This document shows positions 21,539 to 57,606 of a stretch of 57,720 nt of DNA, in pieces; the first letter of the stretch is position 1, and each line of letters begins with the position of its first letter. This DNA comes from Thermoleophilia bacterium (GTDB lineage Bacteria > Actinomycetota > Thermoleophilia > Gaiellales > Gaiellaceae), in assembly GCA_009694305.1 (NCBI GenBank), contig SHVL01000013.1, positions 1 to 57,720 on the forward strand, read 5' to 3'. The translations under genes were made by a program, and so were the position numbers. The notes beneath the pieces were generated by a model. It was not told the DNA's origin, did no database searches, and saw only the letters and a list, made by a program, of their open reading frames with translations.

Positions 21539-22534
21539 ATGGATGCCGAAGCACTCGAGCGCGAAGGACTTGCGGCTGCCGCTGCCGCAATCTCGGCCGA
21601 CGCTGTCGAGGCCGTCCGGATCGAGTTCCTGGGGCGCAAGAGCGCAATCAAGCAGGCGCTACGCGACGTGCGCGACCGCGAGACCGGGATGACGTTGAAC
21701 GCCGTACGCGAGCGGCTCGAGACGGCGATCGACGAGCGCGAGAGCGTGCTCGCGCGCGCGGAGCTCGATGCGCGGCTGACGCAGGAGCGGGTGGACGTGA
21801 CCCTCCCCGTGGGCGGCCAGACGCGGGGAAGCCTGCACCTGATCACCCAGATCCGGCGGGAGGTCGAGGACATCTTCCTCGGTCTCGGCTACCGCGTCGT
21901 GGACGGCCGCGAGGTCGAGACGACCCGCTACAACTTCGACGGGCTGAACTTTCCCGCAGGCCATCCGGCTCGCTCGCCGCTCGCAACGCTCTTCATCGAC
22001 GAGGAGACCGTCCTGCGGACGGAGACATCGCCATCGCAGATTCGCACGATGGAGATGCAGCAGCCGCCCGTCTACATGGTCTCGCTCGGTCGCACCTACC
22101 GGCGCGACACGCCCGACGCGACGCACTCACCGATCTTCCATCAGGTCGAGGGGCTCGTCGTGGACGAGGGCATCACGCTCGCTGACCTGACCGGGACGCT
22201 CGACCTCCTCTTCAAGAAGCTGTTCGGTGAGCAGCGACGGAGCGAGTTCAGGACACATTACTTCCCGTTCACGGAGCCGTCGATCGAGGCCTACGTCTCC
22301 TGCCACATCTGCGACGGCGACGGGTGCCCGGTCTGCCGCCACTCGGGGTGGATCGAGGTCGGAGGAGCCGGCATGGTGGACCCCAGACTCTTCGAGTTCG
22401 TGGGCTACGACCCCGAGCGCTACAGCGGATTCGCATTCGGCTGGGGGCTCGAGCGCATCGCGATGCTCCGCCACGAGTTCCCTGACCTCCGTGAGCTGTG
22501 GCGCAACGACCTGCGTTTCTCGAGGCAGTTCTGA
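21539..22534 (+). CDS. pheS: Phenylalanyl-tRNA synthetase alpha subunit
   Basis: EFLGRKSAIKQALRDV, HPARSPLATLFID, VYMVSLGRTYRRDTPDATHSPIFHQVEGLVVD. Confidence 0.97.
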   Translation: MDAEALEREGLAAAAAAISADAVEAVRIEFLGRKSAIKQALRDVRDRETGMTLNAVRERLETAIDERESVLARAELDARLTQERVDVTLPVGGQTRGSLHLITQIRREVEDIFLGLGYRVVDGREVETTRYNFDGLNFPAGHPARSPLATLFIDEETVLRTETSPSQIRTMEMQQPPVYMVSLGRTYRRDTPDATHSPIFHQVEGLVVDEGITLADLTGTLDLLFKKLFGEQRRSEFRTHYFPFTEPSIEAYVSCHICDGDGCPVCRHSGWIEVGGAGMVDPRLFEFVGYDPERYSGFAFGWGLERIAMLRHEFPDLRELWRNDLRFSRQF

Positions 22535-22589
22535 TGCAGCGTCCTGCAACGATCCTTCGGACATGTTCGCTGCAGGACGCTGCATCAGA
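22530..22589. repeat. Perfect 19-bp inverted repeat with 22-nt loop over the pheS stop codon
   Basis: TCTGATGCAGCGTCCTGCA (22530-22548) / TGCAGGACGCTGCATCAGA (22571-22589). Confidence 0.95.
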
Positions 22590-22700
22590 TGCTCGCTGCT
22601 CGCGGGTCAGCTGCTGTGCAGCTGCCCCGCGAGATCCTGAAGGGGCGCTCTTCGCGTGCCCGGGAACCATGACGCGTCCGGTGAACGAGGCACCGCACTA

Positions 22701-24995
22701 GTGCGCGCACCTCTCTCCTGGCTGCGTGAGTACGTTCGCGTGGATGCGACGGCGGAAGAGATCGCGCGCCGACTCGCCGTCTCGTCACTCGAGGTCGATC
22801 GCGTTATCGAGATGGGCGTCGAGGACGTCGGCGACAACCTCTCCTACCTGCGCGTCGGCCGCGTTCTCTCGGCCGACAAGCACCCGAACGCCGATAAACT
22901 GCAGCTCTGCCAGCTCGACACGGGGGAGGGAGAGCCGCGGCAGATCGTCTGCGGCGCCTGGAACTTCGGCGTCGGGGCCACGGTCGCGGTCGGGCTTCCC
23001 GGCGTGCTGCTGCCGGGCTTCCCGGCGCCGCTCGACGAGCGCCCGCTGCGCGGCGAGCTCTCCCGCGGGATGATTCTCGCCGAGGACGAGATCGGCCTCG
23101 GCTCCGACCACGCCGGAATCATGATTCTCCCCGACGGCATCGAGCCGGGCACGCCGCTGTCGGACGTGTTGCCCGTGCACGAGCAGGTGCTCGACCTGAC
23201 ACCGACGATGAACCGCGTAGACCTGCTCTCGATGGTCGGCCTGGCTCGCGAGGTGGCAACACTCTTCGACGGCGAGCTTCTGCCGATCGCCGTTGACGAC
23301 CCGCCGGCCCTCGAGACGGAGCCGGTCGATGTCACGGTCGAAGACCCGCTGGGCTGCCCGCGGTACCTCGCTCGCGTGTTCAGGGGCGTCACGGTCGCGC
23401 CGTCGCCGATGTGGCTCAGGGCCCGGTTGCACGCGGCAGGAATGCGGTCGATCTCGAATGTAGTGGACGTCACGAACTACGTCATGCACGTCTACGGCAG
23501 CCCGCTGCACGTCTTTGACCGGACGAAGCTCGAGGGCGGGCGGATCGTCGTTCGCCGCGCCACCGCAGGCGAGGAGATCCGTACGCTCGACGGCATCCCG
23601 AGGAAGCTCGACACGCGGGATCTCCTGATCACCGACGGAGAGAAGGCTGTCGCCCTCGCGGCGATCATGGGCGGTGAGGACAGCGAGGTCACGGACGCGA
23701 CGACGGAGGTGCTCCTCGAGGCTGCGAACTTCGAGCCGATCGGAATCATGGGCAGCTCGGAGCGCCTCGGCCTTCGTACCGAGGGATCGAACCGCTGGGA
23801 GAAGGGCGTCGATCCGTATCAGGCAGAGGCGGCCGCGGTGCTCGCCAGCCGACTCCTGGTGGACTTCACGGGAGCAGAGCTGACAGGAAGCACCGATATC
23901 CATTCGGGGCTTCCGGAGCGGCCCGTCGTCCGGCTGCGTACCGATCGCACGGATCGCATCGTCGGTCTCGTCGTCTCCTCCGAGGAGCAGCGGTCGATCC
24001 TCGACCGGCTCGGCTTCGAGGTGAGCGAGGACTGGGACGTGACGGTGCCGACGTGGCGCGCTCGTGATGTCACGCGCGAGATCGACGTGATCGAGGAGGT
24101 GGCGCGCGTCGTCCTGCCGCGCGTTCCGAGGACGATGCCGCTGCGTCGGCTCGTGGAGGGGCACCTGACCGGCGACCAGCGCCTGCGACGCGTGCTCGAG
24201 GACGTTCTGACGGGCGCCGGTTTCTCGGAGGCCTACACGTGGAGCCTCGTCGCGAACGACCCGGACCCGTCTGCCATTCGCCTCTCCGACCCGATGAGCG
24301 GCGACCAGGCGATTCTCCGGACGACCCTGATCCACGGTCTTGTCGAGGCAGCACGTGAGAACGTCGATGCGGGGAACGCCGGCATCAGGCTCTTCGAGTT
24401 CGCGCGCGTCTACCTCCCGTCAGATGAGCAGCTACCCGAGGAGCGCTGGCGCGTTGCCGGCATCGCCGCGGGTGGATTCGACGCAGCCCGTGCAGCCGTC
24501 GAAGTCGTGTATGACGCTCTCCATCTCGGCCTGCGGGTGCGCCGCGCACAGCGCCCGTTTCTGCATCCGGGCAAGGCGGGTGAAACCGACGCAGGCTGGC
24601 TCGGGGAGCTGCATCCGGCGTTGCTCGATGGCTCGTGGGGCGTGTTCGAGCTCGACGTCGCGACCCTGATCGGGCCGGTGCCCGAGAGGATCCTCTACGA
24701 CGACGTGATCACCTTCCCGCCGCTGCGCCAGGACATCGCGGTCGTCGTCGAGGAGGAGGTCGAAGCAGCTGCTCTCGTTGACGTGATCCTCGAAGCAGGG
24801 GCACCGGAGCTGCGCGAGGCACGCGTCTTCGACGTCTACCGTGGCGACCAGGTGGGTGAGGGGCGCAAGTCGGTCGCGATCCACCTGTCTTTTCAGGTGC
24901 CAGACCGGACGCTGTCCGACGACGACGCGCTGGTCGTGCGGCAGCGTGTGGTCGCGGCGCTCGCAGACCGGTTCGAGGCGGAACTTCGCGGCTGA
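22701..24995 (+). CDS. pheT: Phenylalanyl-tRNA synthetase beta subunit
   Basis: VRAPLSWLREYVRVDATAEEIARRL ... KHPNADKLQLCQLDTGEGE ... EVARVVLPRVPRTMPL; GTG start. Confidence 0.96.
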   Translation: MRAPLSWLREYVRVDATAEEIARRLAVSSLEVDRVIEMGVEDVGDNLSYLRVGRVLSADKHPNADKLQLCQLDTGEGEPRQIVCGAWNFGVGATVAVGLPGVLLPGFPAPLDERPLRGELSRGMILAEDEIGLGSDHAGIMILPDGIEPGTPLSDVLPVHEQVLDLTPTMNRVDLLSMVGLAREVATLFDGELLPIAVDDPPALETEPVDVTVEDPLGCPRYLARVFRGVTVAPSPMWLRARLHAAGMRSISNVVDVTNYVMHVYGSPLHVFDRTKLEGGRIVVRRATAGEEIRTLDGIPRKLDTRDLLITDGEKAVALAAIMGGEDSEVTDATTEVLLEAANFEPIGIMGSSERLGLRTEGSNRWEKGVDPYQAEAAAVLASRLLVDFTGAELTGSTDIHSGLPERPVVRLRTDRTDRIVGLVVSSEEQRSILDRLGFEVSEDWDVTVPTWRARDVTREIDVIEEVARVVLPRVPRTMPLRRLVEGHLTGDQRLRRVLEDVLTGAGFSEAYTWSLVANDPDPSAIRLSDPMSGDQAILRTTLIHGLVEAARENVDAGNAGIRLFEFARVYLPSDEQLPEERWRVAGIAAGGFDAARAAVEVVYDALHLGLRVRRAQRPFLHPGKAGETDAGWLGELHPALLDGSWGVFELDVATLIGPVPERILYDDVITFPPLRQDIAVVVEEEVEAAALVDVILEAGAPELREARVFDVYRGDQVGEGRKSVAIHLSFQVPDRTLSDDDALVVRQRVVAALADRFEAELRG

Positions 24996-47710: not shown

Positions 47711-48579
47711 CACGCCTCAGGCTCGTACTCTCCGAAGCCCTCCGCTCGATCGGTGCGAATCTCTCCACCTCCGTCGCGGCGACAATGACCGTCCTCATCG
47801 GGATGCTCCTGCTTGGCCTCTCGATTGCCCTCGGAAGCTGGGTGGTCTCGTGGTCGAACCACGTCAAGTCGGAACTTCAAGTACAGGTCTTCTTCGTTGA
47901 CTCGGTCACGCCGAAACAGGTGAACGCCGTCGGAAGAAAGCTGGGTAGCGACCCGCGGGTCGGCAACTACCAGTTCGTCTCGAAGGCCGAGGCACTGCGG
48001 CGGATGAAGAAGAAGTACCCGCAGTTGACCGCCAACCTGCCGTCGAATCCCCTGCCGGCCGCATTCGAGGTGACTCCGAAGAAGGCAGAGGACGTCAAGG
48101 TGATCGCCACCGTCCTGCGGAAGCAGAAGTTCGCAGGCGTCGAGAAGATCAAGGATGGGCAGCAGACCTCGGCGCGCATCCTGCAGGTGGGCAAATGGAT
48201 CTCCTACGTCTTCGTGGCGATGGTCGTCGTGCTCCTGATCGCCTCGGTCATCCTGATCGCGAACACGATCCGCCTCTCCATCTTCTCCCGCCGCCGCGAG
48301 ATCGAGGTGATGAAGCTTGTCGGTGCGACGAACTGGTTCGTCCGCGGGCCGTTCATGCTCGAGGGCCTGCTCTGCGGCCTCGTCGGCTCGATCGCCGCCG
48401 TTCTGCTGCTCTTCATCGGGAAGCAGTTTGCGCTGCCCGCGATTCTCGGCCACATCGACACGACCGACGACGTCAAGGCGCTGTCCTTCGGCCTCACCGC
48501 GCTCGCGCTCATCGGCGTCGGGCTCCTCATCGGCGCACTCGGCTCGGGCCTGACGTTGCGGCGCTTTTTGAAGGTCTAA
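47707..48579 (+). CDS. ftsX: Cell division protein FtsX
   Basis: LSEALRSIGANLSTSVAATMTVLIGMLLLGL, RRREIEVMKLVGATNWFVRGPFMLEGLLCGLVGS; directly after ftsE. Confidence 0.94.
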   Translation: MTRLRLVLSEALRSIGANLSTSVAATMTVLIGMLLLGLSIALGSWVVSWSNHVKSELQVQVFFVDSVTPKQVNAVGRKLGSDPRVGNYQFVSKAEALRRMKKKYPQLTANLPSNPLPAAFEVTPKKAEDVKVIATVLRKQKFAGVEKIKDGQQTSARILQVGKWISYVFVAMVVVLLIASVILIANTIRLSIFSRRREIEVMKLVGATNWFVRGPFMLEGLLCGLVGSIAAVLLLFIGKQFALPAILGHIDTTDDVKALSFGLTALALIGVGLLIGALGSGLTLRRFLKV

Positions 48580-48639
48580 CGCGGCGAGATTTCTGCGATG
48601 GAAGAGCATATCGCGGAAATCTCGCCGCGTTAGACCTTC
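48570..48639. repeat. Perfect 24-bp inverted repeat with 22-nt loop over the ftsX stop codon, followed by CATTTTTCTG
   Basis: GAAGGTCTAACGCGGCGAGATTTC (48570-48593) / GAAATCTCGCCGCGTTAGACCTTC (48616-48639). Confidence 0.96.
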
Positions 48640-48688
48640 CATTTTTCTGCTCGCTTCGCGAGATCCTGAAGGGGCTCGCCCGCGAGCC
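48595..48688 (+). repeat. 94-bp perfect direct repeat, copy 1
   Basis: gcgatggaagagcatatcgcgg...gatcctgaaggggctcgcccgcgagcc. Confidence 0.96.
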
Positions 48689-48737
48689 TCTGAGTTCAGC
48701 AACGGTGATGAGGGGCGTTCTAGCGGTGTGGGGTTCC

Positions 48738-48831
48738 GCGATGGAAGAGCATATCGCGGAAATCTCGCCGCGTTAGACCTTCCATTTTTCTGCTCGCTTC
48801 GCGAGATCCTGAAGGGGCTCGCCCGCGAGCC
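48738..48831 (+). repeat. 94-bp perfect direct repeat, copy 2
   Basis: Identical to 48595-48688. Confidence 0.96.
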
Positions 48832-48922
48832 ATGTGGACGGTGTCCTTCCGCGGACGCCGGTGACAGGCTTCAGCCTGTCTCCTGGGTTCGTCGTCCTGG
48901 GTTCCGCCGGTACCCTCACTCC

Positions 48923-50593
48923 ATGACCGGTGGGCGCAGACAGGGACGCGGCCGGGCGAAGCGCCCGAGCCGCTCCGAGCGCCACGAGCGCGCCCGTGCC
49001 GCCGGTGGGCAGGCGGCTGTGAGGCGCGCCGAGGGCGCGATCGAGACCACGCTGCCGCAGCGGCGTGTCGAGCCCGAGTCCGTCGTTGCTCACCTCGGGC
49101 CGACGAACTCCGGCAAGACCTACCACGCGCTCGAGGTGCTCAAGGAGCGCGGCCGCGGTGTCTATGCGGGGCCCCTACGGATGCTCGCGCAGGAGGCACA
49201 CCGGAGGCTCTCCGCGGAACTCGGTGCCGACGCCGTCGGCCTTGTCACCGGTGAAGAGCGCGTCAACGACGGGGCCCCGATCATCTGCTGCACGGTCGAG
49301 ATGGCGCCGAGCGCGGGCGAGGTGCTCGTGCTCGACGAGGTGCAGTGGGCGGACGATCCCGAGCGCGGGTCTGCGTGGACGCGTCTGCTGCTCGCGGGCG
49401 ACTACCGCCACATCCTCCTGCTCGGGGCGCTCGATGCGGAGCCGCTCGTCCAGCGCGTCTTCCCGGACGCCGAGATCAAGGTGTTCGAGCGCATTCTCCC
49501 GCTCGAGTTCGTGGGCGAGCGCCCACTCCGGGGGCTCACGCCCGGCACCGTCGTCGTGGCCTTCAGCCGCAAGGCCGTGCTGGCGCTCGCCGGTGAGATC
49601 AACCGCCTGCATCCGGGCCGCGTCTCGGTGTTGTACGGAGCGATGCCGCTCAGCTCGCGGCGCGAGGAGATAGACCGATTCCTCGCCGGGACATCCGATG
49701 TCACCGTCGCCACGGACGTGCTCGGGCACGGGGTCAACCTTCCCTGCGAGACGCTGCTCTTTGCCGAGACGACGAAGTTCGACGGCGAGTCGCGCAGGGA
49801 TCTGCTGCCGTGGGAGCTCGCACAGATCGCAGGCCGTGCCGGGCGATTCGGCCTCGTCGAGCGGGGCCACGTCGGGGTGCTCACAGGAGTGCCGTGGGCG
49901 AACGCCGATCCGGCGATCGTGGAGGAGGCGCTCCGGCCCCACGTGCTGCTCCCGTCCGGGCATCTCGGCTACCGGATCGTTGACGAGGCGCGCATCCGGC
50001 CGCGCCTTGCCGACCTCGGAACCGATGACCCGCGCCGTCTCGATGCGGCGCTTGCTGCGTGGCATCGCGTTGCGACGCGCACGTGGGCCTACGAGAGCTG
50101 GCTGTCGGTGGAATCGCTCTCGCCGCTTCGCGGCCGTCTTGCAGCGATCCAGAGACGTCTGACCGAGCGCAATCGCCGGCTCACGATCGAGGATACGTGG
50201 AAGCTGATCAACGCGCCCGTGGACGAGGACAACGCGGAGCTCCTTGCCACGCTCGCGCTCGCCGTCTCGGGCGACACGGCACAGCGGTCGCTGCTCACGT
50301 TCCTGCTCGATCCCGCGAGGCTGCGTGACGCCACACTCGAGGAGGCAGAGCAAGCTGGAAGAACTGCAAGCATTCTGCGGTGGTTCGCGTTGCAGTACAC
50401 CGATGTCGGCGGGGTCTCGATCGAGCGTGCCACAGCCCTAGAGGAGGCTGCAGCGGCGCGCGTTGTCGCTCGCCTGCACGTCGAGGTGCGCGACCCCACG
50501 ATCGGCCGCTGCCGCAAGTGTGGCAAGACCTGCGCGCCATGGTTTCCGATGTGCGACCGCTGCTTCGGTCGTGGGGGCGGGCGGCCACGATGA
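48923..50593 (+). CDS. Suv3-like DExH RNA helicase with C-terminal zinc ribbon
   Basis: VVAHLGPTNSGKTYHALEVL, VLVLDEVQWADDPERGSAWTRLLL, ATDVLGHGVNLPCETLLFAETTKFDG, QIAGRAGRFG; tail CRKCGKTCAPWFPMCDRC. Confidence 0.88.
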   Translation: MTGGRRQGRGRAKRPSRSERHERARAAGGQAAVRRAEGAIETTLPQRRVEPESVVAHLGPTNSGKTYHALEVLKERGRGVYAGPLRMLAQEAHRRLSAELGADAVGLVTGEERVNDGAPIICCTVEMAPSAGEVLVLDEVQWADDPERGSAWTRLLLAGDYRHILLLGALDAEPLVQRVFPDAEIKVFERILPLEFVGERPLRGLTPGTVVVAFSRKAVLALAGEINRLHPGRVSVLYGAMPLSSRREEIDRFLAGTSDVTVATDVLGHGVNLPCETLLFAETTKFDGESRRDLLPWELAQIAGRAGRFGLVERGHVGVLTGVPWANADPAIVEEALRPHVLLPSGHLGYRIVDEARIRPRLADLGTDDPRRLDAALAAWHRVATRTWAYESWLSVESLSPLRGRLAAIQRRLTERNRRLTIEDTWKLINAPVDEDNAELLATLALAVSGDTAQRSLLTFLLDPARLRDATLEEAEQAGRTASILRWFALQYTDVGGVSIERATALEEAAAARVVARLHVEVRDPTIGRCRKCGKTCAPWFPMCDRCFGRGGGRPR

Positions 50594-50625
50594 AGAAGCA
50601 TATTGCGGCCGTCCGCCCCCACGAC
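50568..50625. repeat. 19-bp inverted repeat (1 mismatch) over the helicase stop codon
   Basis: GTCGTGGGGGCGGGCGGCC (50568-50586) / GGCCGTCCGCCCCCACGAC (50607-50625). Confidence 0.95.
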
Positions 50626-50721
50626 CTACGCCATGCCTCCTGCCGCGCTGCGCGCGGATCCTGAAGCCGGGAACCGACGGTTCTCCGGTGGCCCCTCCAT
50701 CGAGAGGAGGCTCCGTAGCTT

Positions 50722-50880
50722 CTACGCTCGGTAGTGACGGGCGACGGCGATCGTCGTCGCGCCGGCCACGAAGGCGATCGCGTTCGGAATGATGATCGCC
50801 AGGTTCACGAGGGCAATCCCGTACGCAACCCACAGCGTGACGCCGCTGATCGCGAGCGCCGTGGTCGTTGATGTGGGAGC
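50722..50880 (-). pseudogene. C-terminal remnant of a SemiSWEET/PQ-loop-like membrane protein
   Basis: Minus-strand frame ALAISGVTLWVAYGIALVNLAIIIPNAIAFVAGATTIAVARHYRA*; upstream frame is non-membrane and lacks a start. Confidence 0.5.
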
Positions 50881-51036
50881 TCTTTTGCGAGGCGGACGGG
50901 ACGGGACGGGCCTGTCGTCAGTCGAGCAGGTCGCCGCGCTCGCGGGAGTCGCCGTAGAGCGGTCGGATTACGTCTGCGGGAGGGTGCACGGGGCGAGCGT
51001 AGCGGCTGTAGGCGCGCGCGCCCCTACAATCGCCCT

Positions 51037-57240: not shown

Positions 57241-57601
57241 GGGGGCGACCTGGTTTCGACGTGGTCGGTTCTCCGGCTGAGTTGCGAGCCGAGGTCCCCG
57301 GTCGGCCTCGTTAATCCACCGGGAAACAACACAAATGCGAATCGTTCAGATCTCGCACTCGCTGCCTAGTCTGACTAGCTAGCGACGCCCGTTCTGGCTG
57401 GGCCCGAGGCCAGAACCGGCGCTAACCATCGGGCTTGGCGCAGAGGGAGAGTCAATCGCCCGACGCGCGACACTTCAGGATTGACTGGCCCGCCGGTAGG
57501 TCGTTCGCCACCGGCCGTCGGGCGAGATCCAAGGCGAACTACGCTCGTAGACGCTCTGTTCGGTGCGTCCGCGGACGCGGGTTCGATTCCCGCCGCCTCC
57601 A
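57241..57601 (+). ncRNA. ssrA: tmRNA; tag GNNTNANRSDLALAA at 57322-57366
   Basis: 5' GGGGGCGACCTGGTTTCGACGTGG, tag ORF ending CTCGCACTCGCTGCCTAG, 3' GCGGGTTCGATTCCCGCCGCCTCCA; acceptor ends pair. Confidence 0.95.
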
Positions 57602-57606
57602 TAATA

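Follow-up and report, generated by a model that had tools for sequence, protein, structure and literature searches.

A gene for a Suv3-like helicase in a Thermoleophilia bacterium (Gaiellaceae; contig SHVL01000013.1) ends in a long palindrome, one arm of which runs into the terminal codons of the gene itself. What placed a hairpin across this gene end, and how did host codons come to be repeated, inverted, behind it? Here, the window means the whole stretch of DNA that was analysed (57,720 nt). G000 denotes the genome of this bacterium, G001 that of its sister species, G006 that of a third species of the genus, and G002 to G005 those of four further congeners.

A long hairpin spans the end of the helicase gene

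A preliminary description of the window had reported that the terminal codons of the helicase recur inversely downstream with one mismatch, and this was confirmed. The arm at 50568-50586 (GTCGTGGGGGCGGGCGGCC) recurs in inverted form at 50607-50625 with a single mismatch, which is a G-U pair as RNA, and one more outward pair (50567 with 50626) extends the hairpin (H1) to a 20-bp stem including this G·U, with the stop codon in the loop, where the description had placed it. The likeness of the loop to that of a similar element behind ftsX also held, as 50586-50607 matches it at 16 of 22 positions, and the small hairpin CCGCGC-TGC-GCGCGG, followed by ATCCTGAAG, was found as described. The features of the helicase gene end and of the other copies in the window are as follows.

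48923-50593, + strand: Suv3-like helicase coding sequence, from the conserved start ATG 48923 (PF22527 DEXQc_Suv3, 4.5e-34)
50567-50586, + strand: 5′ arm (A) of H1, opening with six bases of helicase coding sequence, GGTCGT (Gly-Arg of CFGR)
50573-50593, + strand: codons GGGRPR and stop TGA, attributed to the element from orthologue C-termini
50587-50606, + strand: loop region of H1, containing the family core GATGAAGAAGCATAT and the in-frame stop TGA (50591-50593)
50607-50626, + strand: 3′ arm (A′) of H1, an inverse copy of A, including ACGACC, the inverse of host GGTCGT
50627-50642, + strand: linker TACGCCATGCCTCCTG (family consensus GATGYTTTCTG); the T-run is absent from the helicase copy
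50643-50657, + strand: second hairpin (H2), CCGCGC-TGC-GCGCGG; stem variable, position conserved
50658-50666, + strand: conserved ATCCTGAAG
50667-50703, + strand: third hairpin (H3), CCGGGAACC-GAC-GGTTCTCCGG, and right-end motif TGGCCCCTCCATCGA, common to remnants at two other G000 genes
48570-48688, + strand: ftsX copy, with stem 48570-48599 / 48610-48639, loop, TTTTTCTG, H2, ATCCTGAAG and H3; the ftsX stop TAA lies within the 5′ arm
48734-48831, + strand: incomplete second copy of the ftsX element, in tandem (99% over 98 nt)
22530-22701, + strand: pheS copy of a G006-like sub-type, CTGATGCAGCG...GAGGCACCGCACTAG; congeners are empty, pheS running straight into pheT

The H3 and right-end variant of the helicase copy reads CCGGGAACC..GGTTC..GGCCCCTCC, and the two remnants carry it as well. 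In strength, the helicase inverted repeat ranks second in the window, after the ftsX element. The conserved ATCCTGAAG occurs six times in the window against 0.29 expected, a count reached in 0 of 100 shuffles. No Rfam family matched the element at gathering score; the sole match in the window was a tmRNA gene (RF00023) at 57241-57604, a few kilobases from smpB.

The helicase tail and stop codon differ from those of orthologues

Helicase orthologues from five congeners begin to align at residues 1-11 of the protein read from ATG 48923, which supports this codon as the true start rather than the listed GTG at 48728. The GTG lies just ahead of the second, partial ftsX-element copy (window 48728-48922).

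At the other end of the gene, the congener proteins terminate in CDRCFGRSRS*, CDRCFRRQR*, CARTARR*, CARTGRR* and CDRCARS* (CARS*), and none of these genes has the repeat; the CFGR of the present helicase is shared with G005. The stops of the helicase gene and of a convergent MtN3-type gene fall in one common CTAG in G003, while in G000 they lie ~130 bp apart with the element in between. Given that the congener tails lack the repeat and that the two stops have moved apart, the GGGRPR tail and the stop codon are, on this comparison of sequences, products of the element. This answers the question raised earlier of whether the C-terminal tail was conserved or created by the element. Orthologues lacking the repeat and sharing identical 3′ flanks, a combination named beforehand as speaking against the element, were looked for and none was found. 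The convergent MtN3/SemiSWEET-like gene (50722-50967, - strand) appears N-terminally truncated or frameshifted relative to that of G003.

Related copies form a covarying family within the genus

Eleven copies from G000 and G001 were aligned, and a covariance model was built on them. The model found at least 15 copies in G000, 26 in G001 and 9 in G006, three species of the genus, and none in G002-G005 or in 144 other relatives, although searches over 40 genomes ran under strict filters that may have passed over weak relatives. A pattern scan of genome contigs gave matches across unrelated phyla which, apart from Thermoleophilia CAN_BIN38, are probably due to chance. Within the genus, the element is found in dozens of related copies at other gene ends, as a short (~100-175 bp), non-coding, multicopy sequence; tandem copies are frequent in G001, and one also occurs at ftsX. 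Two copies begin 1-6 nt past tRNA-Leu and tRNA-His genes (L237:1427-1515 and L238:1408-1489). The pnp 3′ end (loci L239 and L224) bears the element in both G000 and G001, and the other sub-type in G006.

The 11-copy alignment has variable stems, whereas the loop core, linker, H2 loop and GATCCTGAAG are constant. Of the stem cells, 94% are paired, and 15 of the 21 pairs show changes on both sides. Covariation was 0.647, compared with 0.181 ± 0.029 in shuffles (0 of 500 reached the observed value) and 0.06-0.15 in slid registers; stem energies range from -38 to -60 kcal/mol. The palindromic 3′-end family proposed in the preliminary description is real, but its members fall into two sub-types, ftsX/helicase on one side and pheS on the other. 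The further statement that the helicase arm differs completely from the ftsX and pheS arms has to be revised: the inner arms of most copies have a common purine-rich/CGCGAT core, and only the outer arms are locus-specific.

Inverted chimeras arising during assembly or amplification might produce such palindromes, and the data do come from metagenome-assembled genomes in which several copies sit at contig ends. However, the same loop, linker and ATCCTGAAG recur at dozens of loci in separately assembled genomes, and the orthologous ftsX and glmS copies have diverged, so that we regard an artefact as extremely improbable. An integron attC-like recombination site, with variable arms, conserved structure and a stop inside, was considered owing to the arms at ftsX. 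The attC core sites follow the consensus RYYYAAC/GTTRRRY, which the ftsX arms GTCTAAC/GTTAGAC of G000 fit. The ftsX copy of G001 no longer has this motif and the other copies do not show it, and the elements sit at core genes (pheS, glmS, aroB and pnp among them); the idea, for which we see next to no likelihood, was dropped since only the G000 ftsX copy fits.

The element has IS630-type ends and targets CTAG

The nature of the element and the outer arm as reversed host sequence had escaped the preliminary description; the ends and the CTAG target are best visible in a sister species, G006. The G006 copies are near-identical, ~175 bp long and probably young, and read CTAG|TGCGGCGTCTC...GAGACGGCGCA|CTAG, with the layout CTAG|TGCGGCGTCTCGCAAC..loop..GTTGCGAGACGCCGCA-CTCGATGCTTGCTG-H2-GATCCTGAAGGGGC-H3-...GTCGAACGTCTGGAGACGGCGCA|CTAG. 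Their terminal inverted repeats (TIRs) are ~29 bp long (left TGCGGCGTCTCGCAACATTCCACCGGAAA, right TGCGCCGTCTCCAGACGTTCGACCCGAAA). Written as a degenerate 32-nt pattern, the TIR was present in 9 of 103 genomes of the bacterial family, and the reversed control in none.

In G035, a genome of another genus, the TIR directly adjoins an open reading frame that matches DDE_3 (8e-8) and the IS630 model NF033545 (2.1e-12), the latter under the whole-protein cut-off because the frame holds the C-terminus only. The same TIR stands in G006 (L305, C8) beside a probable IS630 transposase C-terminal relic, behind a metE-like gene and near a DNA C5-methyltransferase-like frame; judged by eye, this relic looks like the same C-terminus as the G035 fragment. 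Complete transposases bearing these ends were looked for in G000, G001 and G006, and none turned up. Derivatives of ~70-90 bp with the same TIR, flanked by CTAG, occur in G004 and G001 (L388, L395, L401, L406), and in G034 a filler of ~190 bp lies between the same TIR ends. IS481-type elements also target CTAG, and an IS481-type origin was our first guess from the target; rve_3 genes exist in the genus, but the best rve_3 locus, L280, where the ends were compared, has no matching ends, and the IS630 match replaced this candidate.

CTAG stands at both ends of most G006 copies and is usually the CTAG of a gene's TAG stop. Where the left CTAG is intact in G006, its TAG ends a frame of 179 codons or more in 12 of 12 copies, and orthologues confirm the stop for eight of these: purQ, aroB, pnp, rpsT, glcD, cofH and two others, the names being our reading of the sequences. 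As background, 400 kb of G006 contain 106 CTAG sites, a tenth of the number predicted from composition; a crude gene call identifies 32 of them as stops. Orthologous pheS-pheT sites are empty in G001-G003 and G005, the empty G001 pheS having one CTAG, and empty sites were likewise found at aroB, pnp, rpsT, purQ and cofH; they establish that the element was inserted at several genes. An orientation bias of the G006 copies was at first suspected (12 of 12); to judge from coding scores, however, the right ends of C5, C1b and C3b appear to lie at the TAG stop of a convergent gene, and no bias is therefore claimed.

IS630-family elements insert into TA and duplicate only TA (PMC2170065), and IS630 itself prefers the TA of CTAG, going by the title of Tenzen and Ohtsubo (1991) as cited in PMC2170065. 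Since the TIR borders an IS630-family transposase fragment and the target is TA within CTAG, the element is best read as an IS630-type MITE, and we infer that it is mobilised in trans by an IS630-family transposase. The edges of the helicase copy itself in G000 read GGTCGTGG at the left and CTAC at the right; they no longer show an intact TA duplication, the left edge has no intact TA or CTAG, and the TIRs are not clear, so that CTAG is a putative target for this copy, taken from the empty G003 site. Its membership of the family rests on the shared internal parts and a model score of 65 bits, obtained with the copy itself in the seed alignment.

Some hairpin arms repeat adjoining host codons

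The 3′ arm in G006 is nearly constant and copies the element only, with no host copy at any site. In a subset of G000 and G001 copies, the stem enters 4-8 nt of native host codons. The host bases inverted downstream are AAGGTC at ftsX, CGATGACG at the C248 site, GTTTCAC at the SDR site, GAG at glmS and GGTCGT at the helicase gene, and at the first four, comparison with orthologues that lack the element or that stem shows the bases to be native. When the outer arms of 26 copies were compared with their own loci, the complementarity sum was 355, against 267 ± 12.4 after permutation (0 of 20,000 permutations); this signal is due mostly to SDR, C248, C315, C229, the helicase gene and ftsX (whose two copies are orthologous and hence not independent), and is absent at many loci.

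Arm changes are paired between species. At ftsX, G000 and G001 differ at four points of the left arm, among them a 1-nt indel, and each of these differences has its mirror image in the right arm. The glmS host codon is GTC in G001 and GTG in G000, a synonymous difference, and the right arm changes with it (GTCGAG/CTCGG versus GTGGAG/CTCCA). At the SDR site the same CTAG is filled in both species, and the stem enters the host in G000 but not in G001. In G000, what is left at the C248 site is a remnant that lacks the hairpin.

Template switching is documented as a process by which hairpins arise and are maintained (PMC8794818). From the paired arm changes and the host extensions we infer that it has acted here, at the hairpin, during replication after insertion. 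By cut-and-paste, an IS630-family transposase acting in trans would first place the MITE in the TA of a CTAG. Since a hairpin forms the left end of the element, its insertion at a stop codon would leave that hairpin across the gene end. In a second step, the nascent strand would fold back on the hairpin during replication, and one arm would be copied into the other. Such copying would keep the arms complementary and, in some copies, lengthen the stem into adjoining host codons, which would explain why the terminal codons of the helicase are inverted downstream. We consider it fairly likely that the element is a non-autonomous IS630-type MITE whose hairpin is then kept and extended in this way.

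Alternatively, the insertion itself might copy the target flank, the nicked gene end priming its own extension on the small hairpin of the element so that A′ is made at integration. Host codons do appear in A′ at several independent loci, and the loop core CGCGAT..ATCGCG could prime such a fold-back. However, host sequence is copied at none of the sites in G006, whose copies are the most recent; one SDR site shows the extension in one species and not in the other; and IS630-family transposition duplicates TA only (PMC2170065). We therefore think this route improbable. The broader claim that the element copies the host gene end while integrating or settling, by self-primed fold-back synthesis that gives each copy a custom arm fitted to its own gene, is unlikely too; if true, it would describe a mobile element with a host-templated, self-perfecting hairpin.

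The hairpin may serve as a terminator in some copies

The mirrored changes could also be selected compensatory changes. The hairpin would then be primarily a transcription terminator or a stabiliser of mRNA 3′ ends, its arms kept complementary by compensatory mutation. Placement at gene 3′ ends and directly behind the two tRNA genes agrees with this, as do the stable stems and the covariation, and five or six T lie within 8 nt past the stem in ftsX, glmS of G000, C94 and C315. The T-run is absent, however, from the helicase, pheS and G006 copies; pheS-pheT and ftsX-helicase are co-directional pairs, where a terminator would be costly; the mirrored indel and the host-specific extension arise more easily by copying; and a remnant from which the hairpin is deleted survives at the C248 site. 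As the primary explanation of the hairpin, termination is thus a tentative alternative that we find rather unlikely.

Predicted terminator activity is plausible for the copies with a T-run (ftsX, glmS of G000, C94, C315) and for those right behind tRNA-Leu and tRNA-His. It is not plausible for the helicase copy, where the first 8 nt after the stem hold two T, too few for a rho-independent terminator. Selection on RNA structure may act as well as template switching. The new C-terminal tail and stop of the helicase, and a rho-independent terminator in the T-run copies, are probable side effects of the insertion and its extension.

Relation to known repeats and implications

IS630-linked MITEs (RUP), stop-supplying repeats (BOX) and terminator-like repeats (SPRITE) are already known. 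RUP of pneumococcus, an IS630-Spn1-linked MITE, is likewise short and non-coding, with a TIR common with an IS630-family element and a TA target (PMC2229807, PMC3049150). RUP is described as intergenic. In the present family, by contrast, the CTAG mostly belongs to a host stop codon, and the hairpin that forms the left end has an arm able to copy host codons. Correia/NEMIS elements of Neisseria resemble the present family in length (~107-155 bp), TIRs, TA at the termini and stem-loop transcripts, but their TIR is different, and the text consulted in PMC2229807 reports no host-templated arm for them. In pneumococcus, 36 genes take the stop codon at their very 3′ end from BOX, and SPRITE repeats resemble terminators and are over-represented near the 3′ ends of genes (PMC3049150), as here; no sequence relation to either is shown, their arms are element-encoded, and SPRITE lacks similarity to IS TIRs. 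Intrastrand template switching makes hairpins and homogenises inverted-repeat arms (PMC8794818, PMC8604942), but those papers do not link the process to a mobile element by which the nucleating hairpin would reach stop codons. A limited literature search returned no match for stop-codon CTAG targeting together with host-templated arms, and no paper on a Thermoleophilia MITE.

In this GC-rich genus CTAG occurs rarely, and roughly one occurrence in three is a stop codon; an element that targets CTAG would therefore be steered to gene ends without special machinery. The case also illustrates how elements of this kind remodel the C-termini of proteins together with the stop codons. Because the element brings the hairpin with it, the family offers a natural test of whether template switching or selection builds and keeps long RNA stems, in which the host codons serve as the reference arm and the native state is known from empty orthologues.
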